Positions 9,218 through 49,161 of a DNA stretch of 64,000 nucleotides are shown here, one piece after another. The stretch covers positions 1,756,978-1,820,977 of the forward strand of contig NZ_PYYB01000001.1 of assembly GCF_003044185.1 (NCBI RefSeq), read 5' to 3'. The translations under genes and the position numbers were made by a program. The notes under the pieces were generated by a model. It ran no database searches and had not been told where the DNA came from. It was given only the letters and a program-made list of their open reading frames with translations. This DNA is from Paraconexibacter algicola. Lineage in GTDB: Bacteria; Actinomycetota; Thermoleophilia; Solirubrobacterales; Solirubrobacteraceae. The first letter of the stretch is position 1, and every line of letters starts with the position of its first letter.

Positions 9218-9251
9218 CATCCCCACCACCACGATCCCCAGGAGCACCGAG

Positions 9252-9527
9252 ATGATGAGTGAGCGCCTCGTGAAGGTCGGCTCGCGGGTCGGCCTGCACG
9301 CCCGCCCCGCCAGCCTGTTCGTCCAGGCCGCCGCCGCCCAGCCGGCCGTGGTCACGATCGGCCGGCCCGACGGTGACGCCGTCGACGCCCGCAGCATCCT
9401 CGGCGTCCTCGGCCTCGGGGCCGCGCACGGCGACGAGGTCGTCCTGCGGGCCGAGGGGGAGGGCGCGGACGTCGCCGTCGCCGCCCTCGCCGAGCTCGTC
9501 GCGTCCGACCTCGACGCGGTGCAGTAG
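9252..9527 (+). CDS. ptsH: Phosphocarrier protein HPr
   Basis: The 91-residue protein has the HPr site VGLHARPASLFVQAA, with the phosphorylatable His at residue 16 (15 if the second ATG is used). ARSILGVLGLGAAHGDEV holds a Ser at the position equivalent to regulatory Ser46. AGGAG precedes the ATG by 7 nt. It passes phosphate from enzyme I to EIIA. It lies 34 bp after the EIIBC stop and 4 bp before ptsI, so the general PTS proteins are embedded in the fructose operon. Confidence 0.95.
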   Translation: MMSERLVKVGSRVGLHARPASLFVQAAAAQPAVVTIGRPDGDAVDARSILGVLGLGAAHGDEVVLRAEGEGADVAVAALAELVASDLDAVQ

Positions 9528-9531
9528 CCCG

Positions 9532-11217
9532 ATGGCCTCCCTCGAGCACCACGGCCTGGGCGTCAGCGCCGGCATCGCGGTCGGGCCGGTCGCCCGGCTC
9601 GCACCCGGCCCGCAGCTCCCGGCCCACGACGCGCCGGTCGCCGACACGGCGGCCGAGGCGCGGCGCGCGACCGCGGCGCTCGAGGCGGTCGCCGCCGACC
9701 TGGAGGCCCGGGCCGCGACGGCCGGCGGCGAGGCCGCCGACGTGCTGACGGCGCAGGCCCTCATGGCCCGCGACCCGATGCTCGCCTCGGGCATCGCCGA
9801 CCGCGTGACGGGCGGCCGCGACGCGCCGCACGCGGTCGACGCGGCGCTCGCCGAGCACCGTGCCGCGCTCGTCGCGCTCGGCGGCTACATGGCCGAGCGC
9901 GTCGCCGACCTCGACGACCTGCGGACCCGCGCGATCGCGCACCTGCTCGGCGTGCCGATGCCCGGCGTCCCCGACCCGGGGCACCCGTTCGTCCTCGTCG
10001 CGACCGACCTCGCGCCCGCCGACACGGCGACCCTCGACCGCGACCGCGTCGTCGCGATCGTCACCGAGCGCGGCGGGCCCACCGATCACACCGCGATCCT
10101 CGCGAAGTCGCTCGGCATCCCCGCCGTGGTCGCCTGCGCGGCCGCGGCCGGCCTGCACGACGGCGACGAGCTGCTCGTCGACGGGGGCGTCGGGCGGATC
10201 GTCGTCGGCCCCGACCGCGCGCAGGTCGCCGACGCGCAGCGCGCCGCCCAGGAGCTCGCCGCGCGTCGCGCGGGTTCGCACGGCCCCGGGCGCACCGCGG
10301 ACGGTCACCCGGTCCGCCTGCTCGTGAACATCGGCGGCCCGGCCGACGTCGACAGCGCCGGGGTCCCCGGGGCGCAGGGCGTCGGCCTGTTCCGCACCGA
10401 GTTCCTCTTCCTGGACCGGGCGACCGCCCCGACCCGCGACGAGCAGGAGGCCCTCTACCGGGAGGTCTTCACCGCGTTCGCCGGCCGCCGCGTGATCGTG
10501 CGGACGCTCGACGTCGGCGCCGACAAGCCGCTCGCGTACGTCGACCAGCCCGACGAGGCCAACCCGGCGCTCGGCGTCCGCGGCCTGCGGCTCGCGCGCC
10601 GCGACCCCGGGCTGCTGACCGAGCAGCTCCTCGCGATCGCCGCGGCCGCCGCCGGGACCGACGCCGAGGTCGGCGTGATGGCCCCGATGGTCGCGACCGC
10701 CGCCGAGGCGCGGGACTTCGCGGCGGTCGCCCGCGAGCACGGCATCGACCGCGTCGGCGTCATGGTCGAGGTCCCGGCCGCCGCCCTGTGCGCGACCGAG
10801 ATCCTGCAGCACGTCGACTTCGTCAGCCTCGGCACGAACGACCTCGCCCAGTACACGCTGGGCGCGGACCGGCTGGCGGGCGAGCTCGCCGACCTGCTCG
10901 ACCCGTGGCAGCCCGCGGTCCTGCGGCTCGTCGCGATGGTCGGCGAGGCCGGCCTGGCCCACGACAAGCCCGTCGGGGTCTGCGGCGAGGCGGCGTCCGA
11001 TCCGGAGCTCGCGCTCGTGCTGACCGGCCTGGGCGTCTCGTCCCTGTCGATGGCGGCCGCCTGCCTGCCCGACGTCCGCGCGACGCTCGCCGCGCACACG
11101 CTCGAGCAGTGCCGCGCGCTGGCGCAGCTCGCGCTCGCCGCGCCGTCGGCGCCCGACGCGCGCGCGGCCGTCCACGCCGCCGTTCGCGGGGAGGGCGCCG
11201 CGGTCGCGTCGGGCTAG
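9532..11217 (+). CDS. ptsI: PTS enzyme I (phosphoenolpyruvate-protein phosphotransferase)
   Basis: The 561-residue enzyme I transfers phosphate from PEP to HPr. It has the swivelling phospho-His domain with GGPTDHTAILAKSLGIPAVV (active His at about residue 186). The PEP-binding barrel follows, with GLFRTEFLFLDR, NPALGVRGLRLARRDP, the metal-binding segment FVSLGTNDLAQYTL, and the C-terminal acid/base Cys in VCGEAASDP (about residue 484). The start at 9532 gives the standard N-terminus LGVSAGIAVGPV. It is the last gene of the operon and converges on the P450 gene. Confidence 0.96.
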   Translation: MASLEHHGLGVSAGIAVGPVARLAPGPQLPAHDAPVADTAAEARRATAALEAVAADLEARAATAGGEAADVLTAQALMARDPMLASGIADRVTGGRDAPHAVDAALAEHRAALVALGGYMAERVADLDDLRTRAIAHLLGVPMPGVPDPGHPFVLVATDLAPADTATLDRDRVVAIVTERGGPTDHTAILAKSLGIPAVVACAAAAGLHDGDELLVDGGVGRIVVGPDRAQVADAQRAAQELAARRAGSHGPGRTADGHPVRLLVNIGGPADVDSAGVPGAQGVGLFRTEFLFLDRATAPTRDEQEALYREVFTAFAGRRVIVRTLDVGADKPLAYVDQPDEANPALGVRGLRLARRDPGLLTEQLLAIAAAAAGTDAEVGVMAPMVATAAEARDFAAVAREHGIDRVGVMVEVPAAALCATEILQHVDFVSLGTNDLAQYTLGADRLAGELADLLDPWQPAVLRLVAMVGEAGLAHDKPVGVCGEAASDPELALVLTGLGVSSLSMAAACLPDVRATLAAHTLEQCRALAQLALAAPSAPDARAAVHAAVRGEGAAVASG

Positions 11218-11218
11218 G

Positions 11219-11241
11219 CGCCGGGACGCCCGCGCCCGGCG
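11219..11241. terminator. Bidirectional hairpin between ptsI and the P450 gene
   Basis: CGCCGGG / CCCGGCG arms (11219-11225 and 11235-11241) lie in the 29 bp between the two convergent stop codons. Short outer pairing AGGC/GCCT extends it. It could end transcription from both sides. Confidence 0.5.
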
Positions 11242-11246
11242 GGTGC

Positions 11247-12488
11247 CTACCGCAGGGCGACCGGGATGTGCGTGTACTGGTTGAGGAACAGCGACCGGAT
11301 GCGCGTGGGGTCGCCGTCGAGGCGCATGTCCGGCCAGCGGGCGAGCGTCTCCTCGATCCAGATCCGCAGCTCCATCCGGGCGAGCGACGCGCCGAGGCAG
11401 AAGTGGCGGCCGCCGGCGCCGAACGCCTGGTGGCGGTCCAGGCCCTCGCGCGTGAGGTCGAAGGCGTCCGGGCGGTCGGGGTAGAGGGCCGGGTCGCGGT
11501 TGCTGGCGATGTACCAGAGCAGGACGCGGTCGCCCTCGCGGATCTGCGCGCCGCCGAGCTCGACGTCCCGGGTCGCGGCGCGACCCATCATCCCGAAGGC
11601 CGGGAAGCAGCGCAGGCCCTCCTCGACGGCGGCCGGGATGCGCGAGGGGTCCTCCACGAGCAGCCGACGCTGCTCCTCGTCCTCCATCAGGGCGAGCATC
11701 GTCGCGCTGTAGGTCGCGCGGGTCGAGTCGTTGCCCGCGGCGAGCAGCAGGACGAAGAAGGTGGCGATCTCCATCTCGGTGAGCCGGTCGCCATCGACCT
11801 CGGCGGTGATGAGGGCCGACAGGAGGTCGTCGCCGAGGTGCTCGACCCGCTCCTGGCGGACGGCCTCGATGTAGGCGACGACCTGCATGATCTCCTCGAG
11901 CGAGTCGCCCCAGGTCGCCCGGATGGCCGGGTCCTCGAACGCGGTGGCGACGTTCGTCCAGTGGACGAGCCGGCGGTCGTCGGACTCGGGGGTACCCAGG
12001 AGCGAGCCGATCACGCGCGCGGGGACGGGCTGGGCGATGTCGGTGACGAGGTCGACGTGGTCGTGGTCGGTGAAGCGGTCCAGGACGGTCTGGACGATCC
12101 GCCGCACGACGTGCTCGTGCTCGGCGATGCGGCCGGGGGTGAACGCCTTGCCGACGAGCTTCTTCATGCGGTCGTGCCGGGGCGGGTCCATCGAGATCAT
12201 CTGCAGGCGCTGGACGTCCAGCGGGACCCCGACGTCGTCGACGAGGAAGATGCCGCGCCGCTCGGAGGAGAAGGTCGTGAAGTCGCGCGTCGCGGCGTGG
12301 ACGAGGTCGGCGCGGGTGACCGACCAGAACCCGTCCTCGTCGGGGAAGCGGTCGTTCGGGCTCCAGTGGACGGGCTGCTCGCGGCGCATCTGCGCGAACA
12401 GCTCGTACGGGGGCCCGTCGGTCCAGTGGGCGTGGTCGCCGAGGTCGAGCGTCGACAGGTCGGCGGGGGCGGCGGTCGCGGAGCTCAT
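11247..12488 (-). CDS. Cytochrome P450
   Basis: The 413-residue bacterial class I P450 has the I-helix LLAAGNDSTRATYSATM, the ExxR helix EEGLRCFPAF, and the haem loop FGAGGRHFCLGASLARMEL with the thiolate Cys at about residue 364. The oxygen-activation motif reads AGND-S-T rather than AGxDTT. It hydroxylates an unknown hydrophobic substrate and needs a ferredoxin and reductase not encoded nearby. MSSATAAPADLS at 12488 is preferred over an upstream ATG at 12518, which would extend into the operator region. It is divergent from a TetR gene, its likely repressor. Confidence 0.93.
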   Translation of the reverse strand: MSSATAAPADLSTLDLGDHAHWTDGPPYELFAQMRREQPVHWSPNDRFPDEDGFWSVTRADLVHAATRDFTTFSSERRGIFLVDDVGVPLDVQRLQMISMDPPRHDRMKKLVGKAFTPGRIAEHEHVVRRIVQTVLDRFTDHDHVDLVTDIAQPVPARVIGSLLGTPESDDRRLVHWTNVATAFEDPAIRATWGDSLEEIMQVVAYIEAVRQERVEHLGDDLLSALITAEVDGDRLTEMEIATFFVLLLAAGNDSTRATYSATMLALMEDEEQRRLLVEDPSRIPAAVEEGLRCFPAFGMMGRAATRDVELGGAQIREGDRVLLWYIASNRDPALYPDRPDAFDLTREGLDRHQAFGAGGRHFCLGASLARMELRIWIEETLARWPDMRLDGDPTRIRSLFLNQYTHIPVALR

Positions 12489-36083: not shown

Positions 36084-39000
36084 GTGAGCGTCCGCGTCGC
36101 CATCGAGCACCGCACGGTCTACCGCTTCGACCGTCCGGTCCGGCTCGGACCGCACGTCGTCCGGCTCCGTCCGGCGCCGCACTGCCGTACCCCGATCGAC
36201 GGCTACGCGCTGACGGTCGGGCCCGACCCGCACCGCGTGGTCTGGCAGCAGGACCCGTTCGGCAACCACACCGCGCGGCTCGTGCACGCCGAGCCGGTGC
36301 GCGAGCTGTCGATCACCGTCGAGCTCGTCGCCGACCTCACGACGATCAACCCGTTCGACTTCTACCTCGACGAGGACGCCGCACGCTGGCCGTTCGCCTA
36401 CCGCGAGCCGACCGCGACCGACCTCGGGCCGTTCCTCGTCCTCGAGCCGAGCCCCGCGCTCGACGCGTGGGTCGCGGCCTACGGGCGGCAGGAGCGCGGC
36501 ACGATCGACCTGCTCGTCGACCTGACCGCCCGGATCGCGCAGGAGGTCCGCTACGAGACGCGCCTGGAGGAGGGCGTCCAGACCCCGGACGAGACGTTCG
36601 AGCGCGCCGCGGGCTCGTGCCGGGACAGCGCCTGGCTGCTCGTGCAGCTGCTGCGCCGTCTCGGGGTCGCGGCCCGCTTCGCCTCCGGGTACCTCGTGCA
36701 GCTCGCGGGCACCGACGGCGACGGGCCCGCACACGACAGCACCGACCTGCACGCCTGGGCCGAGGCGTACGTCCCGGGCGCCGGCTGGATCGGCCTGGAC
36801 GCCACCTCCGGACTGCTCGCCGGCGAGGGCCACATCCCGCTCTGCTGCACCTCCACCCCCGCGGCGGCCGCCCCGGTCAGCGGCACCAGCGAGGCCGCCG
36901 GCACGCTGACCTTCGCCAACGCGGTCCGGCGGCTCGAGGAGGACCCGGACGTCACCGCGCCGTACACCCCCGAGCAGTGGGAGCGCATCGACCGCCTCGG
37001 CCACGAGGTCGACGCGCGCCTGGAGGCGGGCGGGGTCGCGCTGACGATGGGCGGCGAGCCGACGTTCGTCGCGGTCGACGACCCCGACGCCCCCGAGTGG
37101 AACATCGCCGCGCTCGGCCCGACGAAGCACGGGCGCGCGATCGAGCTCACCCACCGGCTCGCCGACGCCTTCGCCCCGGGGGCGCTCCTGCGCTACGGCC
37201 AGGGCAAGTGGTACCCGAGCGACCCGCTGCCGCGCTGGGAGATCGGCGTGCACTGGCGGCACGACGGCGTGCCGGTCTGGCGCGACCGGTCGCTGCAGGC
37301 CGACCCGACCACCGAGGGCTCCGCGACCGCCCAGGACGCCGAGGACTTCGTCCGCGGCCTGCTGCCGTGGCTGGGCCTGCCCGTCGAGGCCGCCTACCCC
37401 GCCTACGAGGACACGATCGACGAGCTGTGGCGGGAGGCCCGCCTGCCCGGCGGCGACCCGCCGGAGCTCGACGCCCCGGACCCGACCGACCTGCGGCTCG
37501 CCGCGTCGGTGGCGCGCGCCGCGTTCATCGAGCAGCTCGACAAGCGCACCGGCGACCCGGTCGGCTGGGCGGTCCCGCTGCACCGGGCGCCGGGCGACGA
37601 GGAGTGGTCGACGGGCCGCTGGGCGCTGCGCCGCGGACGGCTGTTCCTCACCCCGGGCGACTCGCCGATCGGCCTGCGGCTGCCGCTCGACGCCCTGACC
37701 TGGCGGCCGCCGGAGTTCGTGCCCGAGCCGTCCGTGTTCGCCGAGGTCGCGCCGCTGCCCGTCCCCGCCGACGCGGTCCCGGGCGAGCCCGGGTCGGCGC
37801 CGCCGACGGTCGCCGCCGGAGCGCCCACCGACACCGCCGCGCCCGCGGCCGCCGACGCGCGGCTCGTCGAACCGCCTCCGATCACGACGCTCACCGCCCA
37901 GGTCCGCGCCAGCGGGCACCTGCACGTGTTCCTCCCGCCGCTCACCGCGCTCGAGCACGCGCTCGAGCTCCTGCGCGCGATCGAGGACACCGCCGCCGGG
38001 ATCGGGGTGCCCGTCGTCATCGAGGGCTACGCGCCCCCGTCGGACCGGCGTGCCGGCCGCTTCGTCGTCACGCCCGACCCCGGCGTCATCGAGGTCAACA
38101 TCCACCCCAGCGCGAGCTGGCCCGAGCTGTGCGAGCGCTCCCGCACGATCGTCGACGCCGCCCGCGAGACCGGGCTCGCCGCCGAGAAGTTCGCGCTCGA
38201 CGGCACCCACACCGGGACGGGCGGCGGCAGCCACCTCACCGTCGGCGGCGCCACGCCCGCGGAGAGCCCGTTCCTGCGCCGTCCCGACCTGCTGCGCAGC
38301 CTCATCACCTACTGGCAGATCCACCCGTCGCTCTCCTACGTGTTCTCCGGCCGGTTCGTCGGCCCCACGAGCCAGGCGCCGCGCATCGACGAGGCCCGCC
38401 ACGAGGCGCTCTACGAGCTGGAGATCGCGTTCGCGGAGCTCGAGCGGCTCGGCGAGCAGGCGCGCGAGAACGGCTGGGAGACCCCCGCCTGGCAGGTCGA
38501 CCGGCTGCTGCGCAACATCCTCACCGACCTGACGGGCAACACGCACCGCGCCGAGTTCTGCATCGACAAGCTCCACAACCCCGCGCTCGAGAGCGGCCGC
38601 ATCGGCGTGCTGGAGCTCCGCGGCTTCGAGATGCCGCCGCACGTCGACATGGGCCTCGTGCAGGCGCTGCTCGTCCGGACGCTGATCGCGCGGTTCGCGG
38701 AGACCCCATTCACCGCGCCGCTGCGCCGCTGGGGCACCGAGCTGCACGACCGCTTCCTGCTGCCCTGGTGGGCCGCGGAGGACCTGCGCGCCGTCGCCGC
38801 CGACCTGCGCGACAGCGGCTACGCCTTCGACGACGACTGGCTCGACCCGTTCCTGCACTTCCGCTTCCCGCGCCTGGGCGAGGTCACGCTCGACGGCACC
38901 CGGATCGAGCTGCGCCGCGCGATCGAGCCGTGGAACGTGCTCGGGGAGGAGGCGACCACCAGCGGCACCGCCCGGATGGTCGACTCCTCGCTCGAGCGGC

Positions 39001-39422
39001 TGCAGGTCCGCGTCGACCACCTCGATCCCGACCGTCACCTCGTCACCTGCAACGGGCACGCGCTGCCGCTGCACCCGACCGCCGTGCCCGGCGTGCAGGT
39101 CGCCGGGGTGCGCTACCGGGCGTGGAGCCTGTGGTCGGCGCTGCACCCGACGATCGGCGTGCACGCCCCGCTGGAGCTCGAGCTCGTCGACCGGCGCACG
39201 CGCCGCTCCCTGGGCGGCTGCGCCTACCACGTGACCGAGCCCGACGGGCGCGCCTACGGCGGCGTGCCCCGTGGCGCGAAGGAGGCGGAGGCGCGCCGGG
39301 CGTCCCGCTTCGTGCCCGGTGGGCGCCCCGGGACGATCGTCGACGCGCTCGACCCCGACTGGGACGCCGACTACCCTCGGACGCTCGATCTCCGCCGGAA
39401 GCCCGTCCGGCCGCGCTCCTGA
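36084..39422 (+). CDS. Transglutaminase-like + DUF2126 protein
   Basis: The 1112-residue protein starts with a bacterial transglutaminase N-domain (residues 1-110) and a transglutaminase-like papain-fold core with Cys179 (GSCRDSAWLLVQLLRRLG), His223 (DLHAWAEAYVPG) and Asp239 (IGLDATSG), a complete triad. The large DUF2126 region follows (about 310-1100), with LTMGGEPTFVAVDDPDAPEW, YGQGKWYPSDPLPRWEIG, FVVTPDPGVIEVNIHPSASW and HTGTGGGSHLTVGG. DUF2126 is predicted to contain a peptide-ligase-like (glutamine synthetase/ATP-grasp-type) module. It is a GTG start, 11 nt after TATCGT. It is the first gene of a three-gene operon, 6 bp before the ATP-grasp gene. Confidence 0.9.
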   Translation: MSVRVAIEHRTVYRFDRPVRLGPHVVRLRPAPHCRTPIDGYALTVGPDPHRVVWQQDPFGNHTARLVHAEPVRELSITVELVADLTTINPFDFYLDEDAARWPFAYREPTATDLGPFLVLEPSPALDAWVAAYGRQERGTIDLLVDLTARIAQEVRYETRLEEGVQTPDETFERAAGSCRDSAWLLVQLLRRLGVAARFASGYLVQLAGTDGDGPAHDSTDLHAWAEAYVPGAGWIGLDATSGLLAGEGHIPLCCTSTPAAAAPVSGTSEAAGTLTFANAVRRLEEDPDVTAPYTPEQWERIDRLGHEVDARLEAGGVALTMGGEPTFVAVDDPDAPEWNIAALGPTKHGRAIELTHRLADAFAPGALLRYGQGKWYPSDPLPRWEIGVHWRHDGVPVWRDRSLQADPTTEGSATAQDAEDFVRGLLPWLGLPVEAAYPAYEDTIDELWREARLPGGDPPELDAPDPTDLRLAASVARAAFIEQLDKRTGDPVGWAVPLHRAPGDEEWSTGRWALRRGRLFLTPGDSPIGLRLPLDALTWRPPEFVPEPSVFAEVAPLPVPADAVPGEPGSAPPTVAAGAPTDTAAPAAADARLVEPPPITTLTAQVRASGHLHVFLPPLTALEHALELLRAIEDTAAGIGVPVVIEGYAPPSDRRAGRFVVTPDPGVIEVNIHPSASWPELCERSRTIVDAARETGLAAEKFALDGTHTGTGGGSHLTVGGATPAESPFLRRPDLLRSLITYWQIHPSLSYVFSGRFVGPTSQAPRIDEARHEALYELEIAFAELERLGEQARENGWETPAWQVDRLLRNILTDLTGNTHRAEFCIDKLHNPALESGRIGVLELRGFEMPPHVDMGLVQALLVRTLIARFAETPFTAPLRRWGTELHDRFLLPWWAAEDLRAVAADLRDSGYAFDDDWLDPFLHFRFPRLGEVTLDGTRIELRRAIEPWNVLGEEATTSGTARMVDSSLERLQVRVDHLDPDRHLVTCNGHALPLHPTAVPGVQVAGVRYRAWSLWSALHPTIGVHAPLELELVDRRTRRSLGGCAYHVTEPDGRAYGGVPRGAKEAEARRASRFVPGGRPGTIVDALDPDWDADYPRTLDLRRKPVRPRS

Positions 39423-39428
39423 CCCCTC

Positions 39429-41945
39429 GTGAACCCGCCCACGGCCACCACCGACGCGCCGTACCGGCCCCTGGACGGGTGCTACGACGAGATGGTCGAC
39501 GCGCGGGGCGAGACGCGCGAGCACTGGACGCCGCTGGCCGAGGCGCTGCGCGGCCTCGGGACCGCGGCGCTGCTGGACCGGCGCGCCGAGGCCGCCCGGC
39601 TGCTCGACCAGGACGGCGTCGTCTACCACGCCTACGAGGACCAGCGCTCCGACGCGTGGCTGCTCGACCCGCTGCCCACCGTCCTGACCAGCCGCGAGTG
39701 GCTGCTGCTCGAGGCGGGCCTGATCGAGCGCGCCGAGCTGCTCAACCTCGTGCTCGAGGACCTCTACGGCGCGCGGGACCTGCTGCGCCGCGGCATCGTG
39801 CCGCCCGAGGTCGTGTACGGCCACGACGGCTTCCTGCGCGCCTGCGACGGCATCCGCCTGCCCGGCACCCAGCAGCTCTTCTCCTACGCCGCCGACCTCG
39901 GCCGTGACGCGAGCGGCGCCTGGGTCGTCGTCAGCGACCGCGCGCAGGCCCCGTCCGGCTTCGGGTACGCGCTGGAGAACCGGCTCGTCGTCTCGCGCGT
40001 GCTGCCGTCCCTGTACCGCGACGCGCACGTCCACCGCCTCGCCCCGTTCTTCCGTCAGCTGCGCACCGCGCTGCAGGAGGCCGCCCCGCCCGGCGTCGAC
40101 GACCCGCGGATCGTGGTGCTCTCCCCGGGCCCGTGGAACGAGACCGCGTTCGAGCACGGCATCCTCGCCTCGACGCTCGGCTACCCGCTCGTCGAGGGCG
40201 CCGACCTCACCGTGCGACGCGACGGCGTGTGGATGCGCTCGCTCGGGCGGCTCGAGCCCGTGCACGTCATCCTGCGCCGCGTCGACGGCGACTCCTGCGA
40301 CCCGCTGGAGCTGCGCGCCGACTCGCTGCTCGGCGTGCCCGGGCTGGTCGAGGCCAGCCGCCGCGGCGTCGTCAGCGTCGTCAACACGCTCGGATCCAGC
40401 GCCCTGGAGAACCCGGCGCTGCTCGCGTACCTGCCGCGCATCAGCCGCCACCTGCTCGGACGCGAGCTGCGCCTGCCGACCGTGCCGAGCTGGTGGTGCG
40501 GGGACGAGGACGGGCGCGCGGAGGTGCTCGCGCGCCTCGACGAGCTCGTCGTCCGGCCACTCTCGCGCGGCGCCGGCAGCGCCACCGTCTTCGGCTGGGA
40601 GCTCAGCAACCACGAGCTCGAGGAGCTGCGCGCCCGCATCGAGGCACGCCCCGGGGCGTGGGTCGGGCAGGAGCGCGTCATCACCTCGAGCACGCCGACG
40701 CTCACCGACGACGGGCTCGTCGCGCGCCGCAGCCTGCTGCGGTCCTTCGCCGTCGCGCGCAACGACTCCTACGCGGTGATGCCCGGGGGGCTCACCCGCG
40801 TCGCGCCCGACGACGGCGACGGGCGCATCAGCAACCAGGCGGGCGCGATCTCCAAGGACACCTGGGTCCTGGCCAGCGAGCCCGAGCACCTCACCGGCTT
40901 CTGGCTGCAGACCGGGCCGGTCGTCGAGGGCATCGACCCGATGGCGCAGGTGCCCTCGCGCGTCGCCGAGAACCTCTTCTGGCTCGGCCGCTACGCCGAG
41001 CGTGCCGAGTCCGTCACGCGGCTGCTGCGCGTCATCGACGACCGGCGCACCGAGTTCGAGGGCAGCGACAACCCCGCCGGGGTGGAGGCGCTGCGCACGC
41101 TGCTGCAGGCGGTCACGCGGGTGACCGCGACCGAGCCCGGGTTCCTCGGCGACGGCGCGTCCCAGCGGCTGGCGAGCCCCGGGACGGAGCTGCGCGACCT
41201 CGTGATCGACGAGCGCCGACCGGGCACGGTCGGCCACGCGATCCGCGGCATGCTCGGGGCCGCGTACGCGGTGCGCGACCAGCTCTCGACCGACACGTTC
41301 CTCGTCGTCGGCACGCTCGACCGCACGATCGGCGGCATCTCCGGGGCGGCGCGCGCCGCGACCGTGCAGGCCGCGCTGGGCAAGGTCATGCAGTCGGTGC
41401 TCGCGTTCTCCGGCCTCGCGCAGGAGAGCATGGTCCGCGACCTCGGCTGGCGCTTCATGGACGCCGGACGACGGCTCGAGCGCGCCCTGCAGCTGCTCGC
41501 GCTGCTGCGCGCCACCGTCACGACGGACCGCGGCACCGCGGCCGACAGCCTCGTGCTCGAGAGCGTGCTGGCGGCCGGCGAGTCGCTCATCACCTACCGT
41601 CGCCGCTACCGCTCGCAGGCGCAGCTCGCGACGCTGCTCGACCTGCTGCTGCTCGACGACGGCAACCCCCGCTCGCTGGCCCACCAGCTCGCCCGGGCGG
41701 CGGAGGACCTCGCCGAGCTGCCCGCGGGCAGCGGCCGCCTGCGCGAGGACCAGCGCCGCGTGCTCGAGGCGTCGACCGCGCTGCAGCTCGCCGACGTCGG
41801 CGGTCTCGCGCTGTCCGGGGCCGACGGCGATCGGCCGGCGCTGTCCGCGTTCCTGGACGAGCAGCTGCGGCTGCTCGAGGAGGCGGCGCTCGCCCTGGAG
41901 CGCGACCACTTCGTCCACCGGCTGCCGCAGAGGACGCTGTCGTGA
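39429..41945 (+). CDS. Circularly permuted ATP-grasp + alpha-E domain protein
   Basis: The 838-residue fusion has residues about 60-480 as a circularly permuted ATP-grasp (GHDGFLRACDGIRLPGTQQ, VLSPGPWNETAFEHGILAST, LRADSLLGVPGLVEASRRG, VVNTLGSSALENPALLAYL, VVRPLSRGAGSATVFG). Residues from about 505 are an alpha-E domain (PSRVAENLFWLGRYAERAES). In most genomes these are separate genes (CP_ATPgrasp and DUF403); here they are fused. ATP-grasp enzymes join a carboxylate to an amine using ATP, so peptide or amide formation is the predicted chemistry. The GTG start is 6 bp after the DUF2126 stop, and the stop overlaps the next gene (GTGA). Confidence 0.92.
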   Translation: MNPPTATTDAPYRPLDGCYDEMVDARGETREHWTPLAEALRGLGTAALLDRRAEAARLLDQDGVVYHAYEDQRSDAWLLDPLPTVLTSREWLLLEAGLIERAELLNLVLEDLYGARDLLRRGIVPPEVVYGHDGFLRACDGIRLPGTQQLFSYAADLGRDASGAWVVVSDRAQAPSGFGYALENRLVVSRVLPSLYRDAHVHRLAPFFRQLRTALQEAAPPGVDDPRIVVLSPGPWNETAFEHGILASTLGYPLVEGADLTVRRDGVWMRSLGRLEPVHVILRRVDGDSCDPLELRADSLLGVPGLVEASRRGVVSVVNTLGSSALENPALLAYLPRISRHLLGRELRLPTVPSWWCGDEDGRAEVLARLDELVVRPLSRGAGSATVFGWELSNHELEELRARIEARPGAWVGQERVITSSTPTLTDDGLVARRSLLRSFAVARNDSYAVMPGGLTRVAPDDGDGRISNQAGAISKDTWVLASEPEHLTGFWLQTGPVVEGIDPMAQVPSRVAENLFWLGRYAERAESVTRLLRVIDDRRTEFEGSDNPAGVEALRTLLQAVTRVTATEPGFLGDGASQRLASPGTELRDLVIDERRPGTVGHAIRGMLGAAYAVRDQLSTDTFLVVGTLDRTIGGISGAARAATVQAALGKVMQSVLAFSGLAQESMVRDLGWRFMDAGRRLERALQLLALLRATVTTDRGTAADSLVLESVLAAGESLITYRRRYRSQAQLATLLDLLLLDDGNPRSLAHQLARAAEDLAELPAGSGRLREDQRRVLEASTALQLADVGGLALSGADGDRPALSAFLDEQLRLLEEAALALERDHFVHRLPQRTLS

Positions 41946-42817
41946 GCACCCGCTACCGCGTGGTCCACCGCACGCAGTACACGTACGCGTCCGTCGTCAA
42001 CCCGAGCTACTCGCAGCTGCACCTGCTGCCACGCGACGTGCCCGGACAGCGCTGCGTCTCGAGCGAGGTCGTCGTGTCCCCGCGGCCGGAGGACTACCGC
42101 GAGCACGTCGACTTCTTCGGCAACCGCGTCGGGTACGTCGCGATCCACCGGCCGCACAAGACGCTCACCGTCACGGCCACGAGCGTCGTCGAGGTCGACG
42201 ACCGGCCCGCCGGCCTGCCGCTGCTCGGCCGCCGGCCGTGGGAGGAGGTCCCCGCCGCGCTGCGCGAGACCGACCCGCTGTGGGCCGCCCACTACACGCT
42301 CGACTCGCCGCTGGTGGCCGCGTCCGAGGCGGCCCGCGCGTACGCGGAGCCGTCCTTCCCGCCGGGCCGTGACATGGCGGAGGCGGCCACCGACCTGTGC
42401 GCGCGCATCCACCGCGACTTCACCTTCGACGCGAAGGCGACGACCGTCGCCACCCCGCTGGAGGAGGTGCTGCGCGACCGGCGCGGCGTCTGCCAGGACT
42501 TCGCGCACGTCGGCATCGCGTGCGTGCGCGCGATGGGCCTGCCCGCCCGCTACGTGTCCGGCTACCTGGAGACCGACCCGCCGCCCGGCAAGCCGAAGCT
42601 CGTCGGCGCCGACGTGTCGCACGCGTGGTTCAGCGTCCTGCTGCCCGAGGTCGGCTGGCTCGACCTCGACCCCACGAACGACCAGGTCGTCGGGTCCCGC
42701 TACGTCGTCACCGCGTACGGGCGCGACTACCAGGACCTGCCCCCGGTGAGCGGCGTGATCTTCACCGAGGGCCGGACGAAGAAGCTCGAGGTCACGGTCG
42801 ACGTGACCGCCCTCTGA
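41942..42817 (+). CDS. Transglutaminase family protein
   Basis: The 291-residue protein has a transglutaminase N-domain (RYRVVHRTQYTYASVVNPSY, FFGNRVGYVAIHRPHK) and the papain-like core with Cys184 (RRGVCQDFAHVGIACVRAMG), His227 (DVSHAWFSVLLPEVGW) and Asp243 (LDLDPTNDQ). It may cleave or transfer peptide/isopeptide bonds rather than cross-link proteins. It is cytoplasmic: no signal peptide is seen. It starts at a GTG overlapping the ATP-grasp/alpha-E stop, so the three proteins are probably made in fixed ratio and act together. A perfect hairpin spans its stop codon. Confidence 0.94.
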   Translation: MSTRYRVVHRTQYTYASVVNPSYSQLHLLPRDVPGQRCVSSEVVVSPRPEDYREHVDFFGNRVGYVAIHRPHKTLTVTATSVVEVDDRPAGLPLLGRRPWEEVPAALRETDPLWAAHYTLDSPLVAASEAARAYAEPSFPPGRDMAEAATDLCARIHRDFTFDAKATTVATPLEEVLRDRRGVCQDFAHVGIACVRAMGLPARYVSGYLETDPPPGKPKLVGADVSHAWFSVLLPEVGWLDLDPTNDQVVGSRYVVTAYGRDYQDLPPVSGVIFTEGRTKKLEVTVDVTAL

Positions 42818-42830
42818 CGGTCACGTCGAC
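42797..42830. terminator. Perfect 13-bp hairpin spanning the operon stop codon
   Basis: GTCGACGTGACCG (42797-42809) and CGGTCACGTCGAC (42818-42830) are perfectly complementary around an 8-nt loop that contains the TGA stop. It lies between convergent genes (stops at 42817 and 42842) and could terminate in both directions. Confidence 0.65.
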
Positions 42831-42841
42831 GCCCGCCCCGC

Positions 42842-45424
42842 TCAGCCGCCGGTGTAGCCGGCGATCTGGAACCGGTGCGGGTACGGGAACGCGCCGCCCG
42901 CCGCCACGATCCGGTCGCCCACGACCACGACGTCGTTGAAGAACCCGGGCGAGCCCGCCGAGGGCACCGTGCGCACGCCGCCGGCGGCGAACGCGGAGTC
43001 CGGCTGACCGCTCGCGCTCACCCGACCGAGCACCGCGTGCGTGTCGAGCGCGAAGTCCGACCCGGCGATGACGTAGCCGCCGGCGGCGCGGCGCGCGAGG
43101 CCCGGGGCCTCGCAGCCGTCCGGGAGCGCGAGCGTGATCGAGCCGCCGGCGCCGAACGCCGTGTCGACGCCGCCCTGCGGCGTGATCTTCGCGACCGTGC
43201 ACTGCGGGCGCGGGTTCGCGCTCGTGCGACCGCTGAGGACGAGGGAGCCGTCGGGCTCCCCGACGATCGCGGTCGCGGACGCCACCCGGTCGGGGTCGAG
43301 CACGCGGCGGCCGGGGGTCCCGGCGTCACCCCAGAGCGCGTCGACCTGCACGTCGCCCGCGCCCGACTGCGGCGCGAGGCGCAGCACGACGCCCTCGGAG
43401 TACCCCGGACGCGCGCTGTCGATCGTGAACCCGCTGAGCACCAGGCCGGTGAGGGCGCCGCCCGCGGTCTGCATGGCCATGTCGGTGATCTGGCAGCCGC
43501 TGCCGCCGCCCCCGGCGATGTCGCAGGCGTTCGCGGGGAGCGTGACGAGGCCGTCGCCGCCGTTGTCGAACGTCGGGTCCGGGGTGCCGTCCGCGGTGAA
43601 GCGGGCGGCGAACACGCGCGAGGAGATGCCGTCGGCGTAGTCGCCGGCCACGACGATCCGGCCGTCGGGCTGGATCGCGACGGCCTGCCCCCTCACGCGC
43701 AACGCCCCGGGGACCGGGATCGAGGCGAGGCCGCTGGAGCCGAACGTCCCGTCGGGCGTGCCGGCGGGCGTGAGCCCGTAGACGCGGACGTCGCCGAGCG
43801 CGGTGGTCTCGCCGACCAGCAGGATCCGGCCCGAAGGCGCGACGGCGGCGTCGCGGCCCCCGAGGTCGATCCCGCTCTCGATGAAGGTCGCCGTGCCGCC
43901 GCTGCCGTAGGTGTCGAGCGCGCCGTTGGCCGTGTAGCGCGCCGTCGCCCAGTCGTAGGCGCTGCCGCGCTCGCGCAGGCCGATGAGCACGAACTTGCCG
44001 TCCGGGCCGGTCGCGATCCGGTTGACGTACGCGCTGCGCGGCATGCCGCCCTGACTGAAGGGCAGCGACTCGACGCCCCCGAGACCGAAGGTCGGGTCGA
44101 GCGTCGCGGGCGGCAGGCCGCTCACGTCGGGCGCGCCGCCGCCCCCGGTGGCCGGAACCTTCGGCCGGAAGTTCGCGGCGACGATGAGCGACGGCCCGGG
44201 CCGGTCGGTCACCAGGCCGACCCGGCAGGTCTCGCCCTTGTTCGGGTTGCCCTTCGTGCAGCCCTCGAAGCTCGCGATCTCCGAGCCCGCCGCCGGCTTG
44301 GCGTCGAGGTCCACGCTGTCACCGGTGACGAAGAGGTGCGAGCAGACCGGCGGGCACGAGATCTCCCCGCCCGCGGACACGAGGGCGCCGCTCCCGCTGC
44401 CGGTGATCTGCACGGTGATGCGCGTGCCCGGGACCGTCGGCGCGGTGATCCGCGGCGCCTCGATCGCGGCCTGCTGGGTGGAGTTCACCTGGTCACGGAT
44501 CGTGACCTGGCGGGCGGTGATCCGGGTGCGCGGCACCCGCACGAACTGCGCCTCGGTCCTCGCCGCGGCGGCGTACGTGTCGGGCACCTGCAGCGGCAGC
44601 CGCTTGGCGACGTCCGCCCAGCGCGTGGCGACCGCCGCGTTGCCGAGCTCGGCGCGGATGAAGTCGACGACCGCCGGGCTCTTCTTCGCCGCCTGGTAGG
44701 AGAGCGGCTCGCCGAGCGTGCCGAAGATCAGCTCGTACATCGTGCGCGTCCGCGCGTTCATCTTCGCGCCACCCGTGGAGATGGTGCCCGCGGTCTGCGG
44801 CGGGGCCTGCCGGAAGCGCCCGTGCACGTCGATGGGACGGTGCGCCGCCCGCAGCGCGTTGCGGGCGCCGAGGACCTTGAGGTAGCCGCTCCAGTTGCCC
44901 AGCGCGGTCGTGAGCGCGTTGCGCACGGTGAACGTGGTCGCCCGCCCGGTCTTCGCCGACACGGACCGCACCCAGAACGACCGGTTGGCGGTCGCGTTGG
45001 TGACCTTCACGGTGAACGAGGCGGTCTTCGGCGTCGTGGCCTTCGTCTTCTTGCGGACGAGGAACACGAGGACGTTGCGGACGGCGGCGCTGCCCTGGCC
45101 CTGGACGGGCGCGGTCGCGACATAGACCTTGGTGGTGCGCCGCAGCCGCTTCCAGGCGCTCGAGCGGATGTCGATGCCGAGGGTCCCGACGGTCTGCCCG
45201 ACGGCGCGCGTGGCGCCCGGCCGGGATCGCGGCACCTTCGTGCTCGTACGGCGCACCTGCACGACGCCGTAGGAGACGTCGCCGGGTGCGGGGGCGGCGA
45301 GGACGAACGAGGCGGGCTTGGCCTTCTGGGCGACGGCGGCCGACGGTGCGACGGTGGCGACCGCGAGCAGACCGACGGCAACGGACGCGGCTGTGGCGCG
45401 CGCGGCCCGGGAACCTGCGGGCAT
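42842..45424 (-). CDS. Secreted delta-60 repeat protein
   Basis: The 860-residue exported protein has a signal peptide (RATAASVAVGLLAVATVAPSA). An N-terminal half of unknown fold (residues 35-440) includes a two-Cys motif EISCPPVCSHLF and a later Cys pair. The C-terminal half carries repeats of the uncharacterised delta-60 family, seen as LDPTFGLGGVESL, GTPDGTFGSSGLASI, GTPDPTFDNGGDGLVTL, GVDTAFGAGGSITL and GQPDSAFAAGG, which fold as a propeller-like domain. The function is unknown; cell-surface or extracellular. AGGAG 5 nt upstream supports the ATG at 45424. It converges on the transglutaminase operon. Confidence 0.87.
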   Translation of the reverse strand: MPAGSRAARATAASVAVGLLAVATVAPSAAVAQKAKPASFVLAAPAPGDVSYGVVQVRRTSTKVPRSRPGATRAVGQTVGTLGIDIRSSAWKRLRRTTKVYVATAPVQGQGSAAVRNVLVFLVRKKTKATTPKTASFTVKVTNATANRSFWVRSVSAKTGRATTFTVRNALTTALGNWSGYLKVLGARNALRAAHRPIDVHGRFRQAPPQTAGTISTGGAKMNARTRTMYELIFGTLGEPLSYQAAKKSPAVVDFIRAELGNAAVATRWADVAKRLPLQVPDTYAAAARTEAQFVRVPRTRITARQVTIRDQVNSTQQAAIEAPRITAPTVPGTRITVQITGSGSGALVSAGGEISCPPVCSHLFVTGDSVDLDAKPAAGSEIASFEGCTKGNPNKGETCRVGLVTDRPGPSLIVAANFRPKVPATGGGGAPDVSGLPPATLDPTFGLGGVESLPFSQGGMPRSAYVNRIATGPDGKFVLIGLRERGSAYDWATARYTANGALDTYGSGGTATFIESGIDLGGRDAAVAPSGRILLVGETTALGDVRVYGLTPAGTPDGTFGSSGLASIPVPGALRVRGQAVAIQPDGRIVVAGDYADGISSRVFAARFTADGTPDPTFDNGGDGLVTLPANACDIAGGGGSGCQITDMAMQTAGGALTGLVLSGFTIDSARPGYSEGVVLRLAPQSGAGDVQVDALWGDAGTPGRRVLDPDRVASATAIVGEPDGSLVLSGRTSANPRPQCTVAKITPQGGVDTAFGAGGSITLALPDGCEAPGLARRAAGGYVIAGSDFALDTHAVLGRVSASGQPDSAFAAGGVRTVPSAGSPGFFNDVVVVGDRIVAAGGAFPYPHRFQIAGYTGG

Positions 45425-45519: not shown

Positions 45520-46299
45520 TCAGGTGTAGTCGACGCTCTCCGGGGTCGCGCGGTGCTTCCAGTAGCCGAGCACCTGGACCGCGCCGGCGCACGCTGGCAG
45601 GTGGGCGGCGACGTGCCGTCGCACGTCGCGCATGACGAGCGCCTCGCCGCCGCCCCAGCACTGCCCGCGGGTCGTCGGCAGCTCCAGCGTCCGCAGCGTG
45701 TCGATCACCACCGTCGACGTCCCCGGCGCGGCGTCCCCGCGCACGCACCAGTGCCAGTCCACGTCCGCGGCGCTGTCCACCGGGGCCCGCTCCGCCTCGT
45801 CCTGGACCTCGACGAGCGCGATCGTCCGGTGGCCGGCCGGCAGCTGCTCGACGATCGCCTGCAGGGCGGGCAGCCCGGTCTCGTCCGCGGCCAGCAGGCT
45901 CCAACCGGCGTCGGCGACCGGCTCCCAGTGGGTGCGCGGTCCGGCGTGGCCGACCCTGTCACCCGGACGGGCGTGGAGCGCCCAGCGCGCCGCGATCCCC
46001 GCGGGGCCGTGCAGGAACACGTCGACGTCGATGGTCGCGTCCGCCGGGGCGCTGCGGCGGACGGTGAAGTTGCGCCAGTGCTGCTCGGGGCCGCCGGGCG
46101 GGAAGCGCCAGCCCTCGCGCGGGAGCACGAGCTCCTCCCCGGGACCGGCGAATCCGAGCGTGACGATCTCCCCGGGCTGCTCGATCCCGGGATCGCCGAA
46201 CGCGTCCGCGGCGAGCGTCAGGCGCAGCATCCGCGGCGTGAGCGCGCGTCGCGCCACGACCGTGGCGATGCCGGCGTGCAGCGGGAACGGCCGGGTCAT
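45520..46299 (-). CDS. Siderophore-interacting FAD-binding protein
   Basis: The 259-residue protein is of the ViuB/SIP family. It has the FAD-binding RNFTVRR after a beta-barrel, the FAD/substrate segment HGPAGIAARWALHARPGD, LAADETGLPALQAIVEQLP and the C-terminal GYWKHR. It reduces Fe(III) bound to an imported siderophore and releases Fe(II) in the cytoplasm. It is the last gene of the iron operon: its ATG overlaps the ATPase stop by 4 bp. Confidence 0.93.
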   Translation of the reverse strand: MTRPFPLHAGIATVVARRALTPRMLRLTLAADAFGDPGIEQPGEIVTLGFAGPGEELVLPREGWRFPPGGPEQHWRNFTVRRSAPADATIDVDVFLHGPAGIAARWALHARPGDRVGHAGPRTHWEPVADAGWSLLAADETGLPALQAIVEQLPAGHRTIALVEVQDEAERAPVDSAADVDWHWCVRGDAAPGTSTVVIDTLRTLELPTTRGQCWGGGEALVMRDVRRHVAAHLPACAGAVQVLGYWKHRATPESVDYT

Positions 46300-47102
46300 G
46301 CGGGCAGCTCCTGCGCGACCGCCGTGCGCGCCGCCGGGATGACGAGCGGGGCGCCGGTCTCCGGGTCCTCGATCACCCGGCAGCGCAGACCGAAGACGCG
46401 CTCGACGAGGCCGGCGTCCACGATCATGCGCGGATCGCCCTGCGCGACGATCGCCCCCTCGCGCATCGCGACGAGATGCGTCGCGTAGCGGCAGGCGTGG
46501 TTGAGGTCGTGCAGGACCGCCACCAGCGTGCGGCCGCGCTCGTGCAGCTCGGCGCAGAGGTCGAGCACCTCGACCTGGTGGGCGATGTCCAGGAACGTCG
46601 TCGGCTCGTCGAGCAGCAGGATCGGCGTGTCCTGCGCGAGCGCCATCGCCAGCCAGACCCGCTGGCGCTGACCGCCGGAGAGCTCGTCGACGATCCGGTC
46701 GGCGAGGTCCGTCACGCCGGTGGCGTCCATCGCCGTGGCGACCGCCTGCTCGTCGGCGACCGACCACTGCCGCAGCAGCCGCTGATGGGGATAGCGGCCC
46801 CGGGCGACGAGGTCCGCGACCGTGATCCCGTCCGGGGCGATCGCGCTCTGCGGCAGCAGGCCGAGCTCGCGCGCGACCGCCCGCGACGGCTGCGCGCCGA
46901 TGTCGCGCCCGTCGAGCAGGACCGTCCCGGTGCGGGGGCGCAGCATCCGCGCGAGCGCGCGCAGCAGCGTGCTCTTGCCGCACGCGTTCGGGCCGACGAT
47001 CACGGTGAAGGAGCCGTCGGCGATCGCGAGGTCGAGGTCGCGCGCGACGATCCGCCGGTCGTAGGCGAGCTCGAGGTCGGTGGCGGTGAGGCGGGGGCTC
47101 AT
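46296..47102 (-). CDS. Ferric-siderophore ABC transporter ATPase (FepC-type)
   Basis: The 268-residue ATPase has Walker A VGPNACGKSTLLRALA, the signature DELSGGQRQRVWLAMAL, Walker B ILLLDEPTTFLDIAHQVEVL and switch His VLHDLNHACRYA, all typical of FecE/FepC proteins. It powers uptake of ferric siderophore through the two permeases encoded upstream. The start at 47102 is fixed by overlap with the permease stop; an in-frame ATG 30 nt upstream lies inside that gene. Confidence 0.95.
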   Translation of the reverse strand: MSPRLTATDLELAYDRRIVARDLDLAIADGSFTVIVGPNACGKSTLLRALARMLRPRTGTVLLDGRDIGAQPSRAVARELGLLPQSAIAPDGITVADLVARGRYPHQRLLRQWSVADEQAVATAMDATGVTDLADRIVDELSGGQRQRVWLAMALAQDTPILLLDEPTTFLDIAHQVEVLDLCAELHERGRTLVAVLHDLNHACRYATHLVAMREGAIVAQGDPRMIVDAGLVERVFGLRCRVIEDPETGAPLVIPAARTAVAQELPA

Positions 47103-48127
47103 CGGGTTCTCCACTCCTGGGTCAGCAGCCATGCGAGGAAGACGCCGCCGACGAGGCCGGTGACGACGCCCACGGGCAGGTCCTGGTCGAGCAGCCGCTG
47201 GGCGGCGAAGTCGCCGGCGGCCATGAGCGTCGCGCCGGTCAGGGCGCTCGTGCCGAGGCCGGGGACGGCGGCACGCGTCAGGCGCCGGGCGATCTGCGGG
47301 GCGGCGAGCGCGACGAACAGCACCGGCCCGGTCGACGCGGTCCCCACGGCGGTCAGCGCCACGGCGAGCGCGGCGAGCGCCAGCCGCGCGCGCTGCACCC
47401 CGACCCCCAGCGCGCTGGCGGCGTCGTCCCCGAGCTCGAGCAGCTGCATCGAGCGGGACAGCAGCAGCGCCAGCGGCAGCAGCACCGCGAGCGCGGCCGC
47501 GACCGGCCAGACGTGCTCCCAGCCGCGCCCGTTGAGGCTGCCGACGAGCCAGTGCGACGCCTCCAGCGCGTCCTCGCGGGTGGCGCGGGTGATCAGGTAG
47601 TCGTTGAGCGAGTAGAGCGCGTAGCCGATCCCGATGCCGACGAGCACCAGCCGGTAGCCCTGCACGCCGCCGCGGAACGCGAGCAGGTACACGACCGCCG
47701 CGGTGACGACGCCGCCCGCGACGGAGCCGAGCGCGATCGCGACCGCGCCGCCGCTCGTCGTGAGGATGACGAGCAGCGCACCGCTCGCCGAGCCGGCGGT
47801 GAAGCCGATGACGTCCGGGCTCCCGAGCGGGTTGCGGGTGATCGACTGGAAGATCGCGCCCGCGACGCCGAACGCGGCGCCGACCAGCACCGCCGTGAGG
47901 ACGCGCGGCAGGCGCAGCGTCTCGACGATGAACGCGTCCCCGGGATCGCCGCGGCCGACGAGCACGGCGAGGACCTGGCCGACGGACAGCGGGAAGTCCC
48001 CCGTGGTGAGCGCCAGCACGACCGTCGCGAACGTCAGCAGCGCGAGGGCCGCCCCGACGAGGATCGGACGGCGGTGCAGCCGCAGCGAGACGCGGCCGCC
48101 GGCGGCGCGCAGGACGATCGCGCTCAC
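47099..48127 (-). CDS. Ferric-siderophore ABC permease (FepG-type)
   Basis: The 342-residue FecCD-family permease has about 9-10 TM helices, LRLPRVLTAVLVGAAFGVAG, the FecCD hallmark AIFQSITRNPLGSPDVIGF, and LALAALAVALTAVGTASTGP. It pairs with the other permease and with the ATPase. It begins with a GTG that overlaps the previous stop (GTGA). Confidence 0.94.
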   Translation of the reverse strand: MSAIVLRAAGGRVSLRLHRRPILVGAALALLTFATVVLALTTGDFPLSVGQVLAVLVGRGDPGDAFIVETLRLPRVLTAVLVGAAFGVAGAIFQSITRNPLGSPDVIGFTAGSASGALLVILTTSGGAVAIALGSVAGGVVTAAVVYLLAFRGGVQGYRLVLVGIGIGYALYSLNDYLITRATREDALEASHWLVGSLNGRGWEHVWPVAAALAVLLPLALLLSRSMQLLELGDDAASALGVGVQRARLALAALAVALTAVGTASTGPVLFVALAAPQIARRLTRAAVPGLGTSALTGATLMAAGDFAAQRLLDQDLPVGVVTGLVGGVFLAWLLTQEWRTR

Positions 48128-49161
48128 AGCTGCGCGATCCGGGTGCGGCGCACGAGCGCGATGAACACGGGCGCGCCGACGAGCGCGGTGACGATCCCGA
48201 CCTGCAGCTCCCCGGGGCGCACGACGACGCGTCCGAGGACGTCGGCGGCGAGGATGAGGATCGGGCCGAGCAGCACGCAGTACGGGAACACCCAGCGCTG
48301 GTCGGGGCCGGTGATCGCGCGCGCGACGTGCGGGATCGTCAGGCCGACGAACGCGATCGGCCCGGCGGCGGCGGTCGCGGCGCCGCACAGGAGCGTGATC
48401 GCGACCGCGGCGAGGATCCGCGTGCGGCCGAGGTTGGCGCCGAGCGCGCGTCCGGTCTCGTCGCCCAGCGCGATCGCGTTGAGCGACCGGGCGAGCCCGA
48501 GCGCGAGCAGCGTCCCGGCGAGCAGGAACGGCCCGACCTGCGCCAGCACGTCGAGGTCCCGGCCCGCGAGCGAGCCGACGCGCCAGAAGCGGAAGTCGTC
48601 GAACGCGACGGGGTCGAGCAGCGTGACGCCCTCGATGAACGCGCTGAGCGCCGCGTACGTCGCGGTCCCGGCGAGCGCGAGCCGGACCGGGGTGGCGCCA
48701 CCGCGGCCCATCGAGCCGAGCGCGTAGACCGCGACCGACGCGAGCGCGGCACCGGCGAAGGCGAACCACACGTAGCCGGAGGGGTCGCTGACGCCGAGGA
48801 AGCCGATGGCGACGACGACCGCCGCGGAGGCCCCGGCCTGCACGCCGAGGATGCCCGGGTCGGCGAGCGGGTTGCGCGTGATCGCCTGCATCAGCGCGCC
48901 GGAGAGGCCGAGGGCGACGCCGACCGCGATGCCCACGAGGGTCCGCGGGATCCGCAGGTCGCGGACGACCGCCGCGTCCTGCGAGCCGTCGTCGGCACGG
49001 AGGTGGTCGAGGACCTCGCCGAGCGGGATCGAGCGGGTGCCGACCGCCGCCGAGAGGCCGACGAGCAGCACGAGGACGGCGACGCCGAGCAGCAGTCCGG
49101 CGGGACGCGTGATGCGGGGGAGCCGGCGTTCGGCCGGAGGGGTGGCTGCGACAGAGGACAC
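48124..49161 (-). CDS. Ferric-siderophore ABC permease (FepD-type)
   Basis: The 345-residue FecCD-family permease has the N-terminal hydrophobic segment (AGLLLGVAVLVLLVGLSAAV), DLRIPRTLVGIAVGVALGL, the hallmark ALMQAITRNPLADPGILGV and VGLTIPHVARAITGPDQRW. It forms a heterodimeric channel with the next gene product. The GTG start at 49161 lies just left of the iron-box-like sequence, and the binding-protein gene runs divergently 36 bp away. It heads the four-gene uptake operon. Confidence 0.94.
   Translation of the reverse strand: MSSVAATPPAERRLPRITRPAGLLLGVAVLVLLVGLSAAVGTRSIPLGEVLDHLRADDGSQDAAVVRDLRIPRTLVGIAVGVALGLSGALMQAITRNPLADPGILGVQAGASAAVVVAIGFLGVSDPSGYVWFAFAGAALASVAVYALGSMGRGGATPVRLALAGTATYAALSAFIEGVTLLDPVAFDDFRFWRVGSLAGRDLDVLAQVGPFLLAGTLLALGLARSLNAIALGDETGRALGANLGRTRILAAVAITLLCGAATAAAGPIAFVGLTIPHVARAITGPDQRWVFPYCVLLGPILILAADVLGRVVVRPGELQVGIVTALVGAPVFIALVRRTRIAQL

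Follow-up and report, generated by a model that had tools for sequence, protein, structure and literature searches.

The three-gene operon described here raises the question of whether its products act as one peptide-modifying system and, if so, which of them makes the amide bond. It lies in a window of 64,000 nucleotides, the whole stretch of DNA that was analysed, for which a preliminary description had predicted a joint system of peptide synthesis or modification with the ATP-grasp protein as ligase. What stood of this prediction is a co-encoded, widely conserved set of genes with conserved transglutaminase-like (TG) triads; the part given to the ATP-grasp domain was not supported. We think it probable that amide ligation in the cytoplasm, for peptide synthesis or peptide tagging, is the task of a two-module system to which the operon contributes one module. 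The parts of this system would be a glutamine synthetase (GS)-like ligase, an ATP-grasp/alpha-E adaptor with no catalysis of its own, two enzymes of TG fold and a metallopeptidase.

Gene order, catalytic triads and distribution

The operon consists of three coupled genes (Table 1), whose reading frames are all open and mostly covered by Pfam matches. As previously described, genes 1 and 2 are spaced by 6 bp, genes 2 and 3 overlap by 4 bp (GTGA) and a perfect hairpin closes the unit. The hairpin has its arms at 42797-42809 and 42818-42830 and an 8-nt loop holding the stop codon of the small TG gene. Although this stem is beyond chance (the window has two perfect stems of 13 bp, where codon shuffles predict about 0.1), it lacks a U tract and was rejected as a textbook intrinsic terminator; in the relatives L144-L146 no comparable perfect stem lies just 3' of the small TG gene. 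No sigma-70-like promoter was found, and neither the NCBIfam search nor the PADLOC search for anti-phage defence families gave a match. The convergent neighbour (42842-45334, minus strand) encodes a probably secreted protein with a DUF5122 beta-propeller repeat, and is itself adjoined by genes for a siderophore-interacting reductase and a FecCD transporter (45523-48769). Neighbouring kinase, ABC-transporter and reductase clusters were rejected as conserved partners, being generic.

Table 1. Genes, domains and sites of the operon, in window coordinates.
Feature	Coordinates	Strand	Remarks
Gene 1, large TG-like + DUF2126	36084..39422	+	1112 aa, GTG start; PF08379 6-83, PF01841 142-240, PF09899 272-1104, E~0
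Large TG triad C179/H223/D239	36618..36800	+	C179 36618-36620, H223 36750-36752, D239 36798-36800
DUF2126 domain, predicted glutamine-synthetase-like amidoligase	36897..39395	+	PF09899; AlphaFold2 + Foldseek
Gene 2, circularly permuted (CP) ATP-grasp + alpha-E	39429..41945	+	838 aa; PF14403 (CP_ATPgrasp_2) 83-459, PF04168 509-828
Lost Mg-binding ExN site, S169-D170-R171	39933..39941	+	E-D-N in standalone homologues
Alpha-E domain	40953..41912	+	PF04168, E 6e-70
Gene 3, small TG-like protein	41942..42817	+	291 aa; PF08379 + PF01841 (Bact_transglu_N + Transglut_core)
Small TG triad C184/H227/D243	42491..42670	+	C184 42491-42493, H227 42620-42622, D243 42668-42670
13-bp perfect hairpin	42797..42830	+	overlaps gene 3 stop codon; between convergent genes; no U tract

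A TG-like protein with a catalytic triad, one of the parts of an Iyer-type gene set, is found twice in the operon. Both had been recognised as papain-fold proteins with intact Cys-His-Asp triads, and these residues are nearly invariant among homologues: C179, H223 and D239 of the large TG are each kept in 81 of 81, and in the small TG, whose best PDB relatives are 6g49 and 3isr, C184 is kept in 48 and H227 and D243 in all 49 of 49.

Scanning the DUF2126 alignment against 84,980 species genomes returned at least 563 relatives, and 80 loci were read. The order TG-DUF2126, ATP-grasp/alpha-E, TG recurs in Actinomycetota, Pseudomonadota, Bacteroidota, Planctomycetota, Poribacteria and Nitrospirota, and the ATP-grasp/alpha-E fusion stands beside DUF2126 in at least 40 loci. 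Of the 53 loci whose flanks are complete, the fused type occurs in 36, as does the standalone type, and 25 have the two together. In control searches, Synechococcus elongatus was positive for alpha-E, DUF2126 and TG. The operon itself is present in four genomes of the same family (L144-L147; about 57-70% identity), with ATP-grasp and alpha-E in different frames in the fragmented assembly of L147. In a sample of 150 genomes of the phylum, alpha-E occurs in 25 and DUF2126 in 6. The fusion and the second TG recur across phyla and Anbu is rarely found beside alpha-E in the phylum (see below), so that these features, correctly noted in the preliminary description as present or absent here but held to be odd, are ordinary for the family or the phylum.

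Several local variants were also observed. In a few Methylococcaceae (L047, L051, L058, L068, L090), what we take by eye to be a citrate synthase-like gene is inserted between the DUF2126 gene and the fused ATP-grasp gene. At 12 loci, mainly of methylotrophic Proteobacteria, the DUF2126 operon has in its vicinity a member of a conserved family of about 410 aa with no Pfam match (such as L070:14769-15998, minus strand; 65-85% identical). One open frame appears to encode ATP-grasp, alpha-E and small TG together on a short contig from the same order (L143:2642-5185), either as a triple fusion or through a fault of assembly.

Unlinked putative partners elsewhere in the genome

The absence of Anbu from the window, already remarked on, extends to the genome: a PF00227 search over the whole 4.74-Mb assembly (95.6% complete) gave no match, and so no Anbu or 20S proteasome. 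The same search was positive elsewhere, with an Anbu-like gene directly beside alpha-E in only two of the 150 phylum genomes (G104 and G125); a weak match in G101 was rejected as Anbu, since it is not near alpha-E and its contig (C7) holds no system genes.

Clustering of the neighbours of DUF2126 loci pointed instead to a protein with a zinc ribbon and a Peptidase_Mx domain (PF10005 and PF15887), with HExxH in 22 of 22 sequences. In the genome studied here it is encoded on contig C3 (G000:C3:382953-383651; L160:1228-2199), unlinked to the operon, and it was present in all ten DUF2126 genomes sampled. Within the phylum it occurs in 6/6 DUF2126 genomes against 1/144 others (p = 5e-10), the genomes over the Pfam cut-off being those six and G109, which has alpha-E; within the order it occurs in 5/5 against 13/146 (p = 1e-5), and 16 of the 18 genomes of the order sample with this peptidase carry alpha-E (p = 5e-11), all three p values ignoring shared ancestry. 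Furthermore, its gene lies close to the operon by coordinates in G031, G038, G075, G097, G114, G212 and G265, and near it in L046, L107 and L122. From this sequence evidence, we consider Peptidase_Mx the strongest candidate for the hydrolase that would otherwise be lacking, and the likely partner in place of Anbu. Our literature search, outside which the full text of Iyer et al. 2009 lay, returned no paper linking Peptidase_Mx to the DUF2126 set. Mutual exclusion of the two hydrolases was rejected: Anbu and Peptidase_Mx occur in 8 and 17 of the 53 full-flank loci and together in one, which is at chance level. One locus of G212 (L154) combines a fused ATP-grasp/alpha-E, a TG and Peptidase_Mx with no DUF2126.

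A second set of parts is encoded on contig C5 (L003, about 7870-11327), likewise unlinked to the operon: an intact ATP-grasp, directly followed by a 321-aa alpha-E, and a TG overlapping by 4 bp. The genes beside this trio are, by eye, presumably rpmG-secE-nusG-rplK-rplA, and its same-family relatives (L140, L141, L149, L151-L153) share conserved downstream genes. A separate standalone ATP-grasp/alpha-E copy was found in all ten DUF2126 genomes sampled from phylum and order, the alpha-E of G279 being split over two frames. Ignoring shared ancestry, this copy is present in 6/6 DUF2126 genomes against 19/144 others in the phylum (p = 1e-5) and in 5/5 against 27/146 in the order (p = 3e-4). The converse fails, most alpha-E genomes having no DUF2126, and this nesting of modules is consistent with a fused module that needs the standalone one.

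A predicted GS-like fold in DUF2126 and lost residues in gene 2

DUF2126, which Pfam labels a putative amidoligase, is the likely ligase of the operon, because structure prediction places it with the glutamine synthetases. The AlphaFold2 model of residues 248-1112 of gene 1 (pLDDT 79.5, pTM 0.82) appears to have the GS-type fold of a GS/GCS-fold amidoligase: all 50 Foldseek matches listed are GS, GmaS (gamma-glutamylmethylamide synthetase) or the YbdK-type 1tt4, with a best E value among them of 2.6e-3 and probabilities of 0.98-0.99. The TM-scores are low (0.15-0.17 of the query), for which circular permutation could account without this being proof; in this regard, Iyer and colleagues reportedly described a circularly permuted GS-like ligase in 2009, which would fit such scores. 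Sequence comparison with the PDB gave chance-level matches only and no sequence-level relative. The motifs GGEPTF (E325), VIEVN (E670), GTGGGSH (GTGGGxH; H717) and LELR (E844/R846) are invariant in DUF2126 and, compared as sequence motifs, seem to resemble those of GS. The earlier naming of a DUF2126 module was thus right as to its presence and understated as to its nature.

The product of such a ligase might be a free peptide or amide metabolite, serving as a nitrogen store or protectant, and not a protein tag. GmaS-like and glutathione-synthetase-like relatives produce small molecules, in metagenomes from the sea related domains vary together with those of urea metabolism (PMC3597751), and Anbu is up under nitrogen limitation in Pseudomonas putida according to work cited in PMC5666114. 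However, two TGs and a metallopeptidase exceed the needs of a simple metabolite pathway and the conserved surroundings of the operon include neither a transporter nor a gene dedicated to metabolism, which leaves this alternative possible but doubtful. Clearly less likely is a removal system, in which the TGs and the peptidase would strip peptide modifications and DUF2126 recycle them: three or more hydrolase-type domains do stand against one predicted ligase in the operon, yet within the set conservation is highest for the GS-fold ligase (mean column identity of 53%, compared with 41% in the fused ATP-grasp/alpha-E) and synthesis fits at least equally well.

In gene 2 the ATP-grasp fold is kept, since its structure model (pLDDT 88.7) best matches 3n6x (TM-score 0.89 of the target), with glutathione synthetases and glutathionylspermidine synthetase next. 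The motif columns, which read D-E-N-K-K-G-G-G-D-R-N-G-G in standalone relatives and are intact without exception in the standalone copies of the order, read D-S-R-P-R-A-G-A-L-R-S-G-A in gene 2. Of what is expected in an active ATP-grasp carboxylate-amine ligase, gene 2 thus has S169/R171 for the ExN metal motif, P329 and R376 for the ATP-binding lysines, and no GGxG for the glycine-rich loop. The E and N of ExN, which by motif order we equate with E144/N146, the ligands of Mg in human glutathione synthetase, are kept in 83 of 85 standalone-group sequences (the other two being divergent third paralogues of family f27) and in 0 of 56 of the fused clade, whose members have, all 56 or nearly so, lost both of these residues together with the lysine of ADDK and the glycine-rich loop. 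Moreover, mean retention in the fused clade is 0.32 for catalytic and 0.63 for other standalone-invariant columns, and retention reaches 80% in 2/13 of the former against 44/92 of the latter (p = 0.007); it is thus at the active site that the loss is centred. In a tree built with the catalytic columns removed, 59 lost and 83 intact sequences separate exactly (support 0.72); among the sequences compared, ExN loss marks one clade. Fusion to alpha-E was rejected as the cause of catalytic loss, since the fused proteins L028 and L029 keep EDN and NSSQGG; these two (736-737 aa) are a separate ATP-grasp/alpha-E fusion with the catalytic motif retained.

The preliminary description had made its joint system depend on conservation of triad and ATP-binding residues among homologues; the triads are indeed conserved, whereas the ATP- and metal-binding residues of gene 2 are lost here and clade-wide, and its role as amide-bond maker is not supported. 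The CP ATP-grasp and alpha-E of an Iyer-type set are encoded together here as one polypeptide, with a degenerate ATP-grasp, the intact copy being that of contig C5. We infer that the ATP-grasp of gene 2 is a predicted pseudo-ligase. Dead-looking enzymes can carry out other chemistry, and the invariant R438, the Lys/Arg at 376 and a conserved DRTQAPSG motif peculiar to the fused clade suggest that its pocket still binds something. That gene 2 is an active ATP-grasp, with motif changes that do no more than alter how metal or nucleotide is bound and with the two ligases acting in sequence, is the least probable of the alternatives and in our view improbable: fold, R438, K/R376, Q414 and GG453-454 are kept and a related ATP-grasp of the Yersinia bercovieri Anbu operon frees phosphate from ATP (PMC6376114), but the residues listed above are gone throughout the clade and the assayed protein is, judged by operon type, most likely of the intact standalone type because it comes from an Anbu-type operon with a separate alpha-E.

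Proposed mechanism and comparison with known systems

In the amide-ligation system, DUF2126 would use ATP to activate a carboxylate for coupling to an amine. Cleavage, trimming or transfer of amide bonds would fall to the triads of the two papain-fold parts, namely the domain fused to DUF2126 and the small TG. The gene 2 pseudo-ligase with its alpha-E domain would act as an adaptor that binds substrate or aids assembly, perhaps in a pair with the intact ATP-grasp of contig C5, which would supply a second ligation step, and Peptidase_Mx would be the likely hydrolytic partner, cutting or transferring alongside the TGs. More speculatively, and as an idea that we put forward tentatively, DUF2126 systems may be a distinct two-module machine in which an ancestral CP ATP-grasp duplicate was inactivated a single time and became an alpha-E-fused adaptor for the GS-fold ligase, dependent on its intact paralogue and with a zinc-ribbon HExxH metallopeptidase replacing Anbu, that is, an unrecognised conjugation/deconjugation apparatus. 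The gene set is widespread in many bacterial phyla, and our literature search returned no product or target for it. If gene 2 is, as is probable, not a ligase, DUF2126 becomes the enzyme of interest and the need of the genome for two copies of the parts is accounted for, while the link to Peptidase_Mx names a metallopeptidase as a candidate component. Were the tagging reading true, this would be a peptide-conjugation pathway with parts unrelated to Pup and ubiquitin.

In pupylation, PafA and Dop are GS-fold ligases, and the likeness to the operon would lie in a GS-fold ligase proposed to attach a peptide; unlike pupylation, the genome has no 20S proteasome (PF00227), a different GS subfamily, and TG and alpha-E parts. 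Closer is a gene set of CP ATP-grasp, CP GS-like ligase, NTN hydrolase and alpha-E that Iyer and colleagues are said to have predicted in 2009 as a peptide-tagging system. The operon shares with the Iyer et al. 2009 system a CP-type ATP-grasp, alpha-E, TG-like proteins, the GS-like DUF2126 and the conserved neighbourhood, whereas the genome differs by having no Anbu, a degenerate operon ATP-grasp, unlinked modules and a co-occurring Peptidase_Mx. The Anbu operon (Valas and Bourne 2008; PMC5666114; PMC6376114) has ATP-grasp, alpha-E and TG in common with this genome, and the C5 trio corresponds to its first three genes; the operon in the window, in contrast, is without Anbu, adds DUF2126 and has ATP-grasp fused to alpha-E. 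In Y. bercovieri, no peptidase activity of Anbu was seen and a pull-down of the Anbu-operon proteins gave no specific complex (PMC6376114). Additionally, 3n6x, a putative glutathionylspermidine synthase of Methylobacillus flagellatus from structural genomics, shares the CP ATP-grasp fold with gene 2 (32% identity over 465 columns) but keeps the EDN, ADDK, VVK-SGGYG and NSSQGG motifs that gene 2 does not. The operon is a true member of a known system, predicted but unproven, to which it adds a predicted pseudo-ligase, the nesting of modules and the link to a metallopeptidase.
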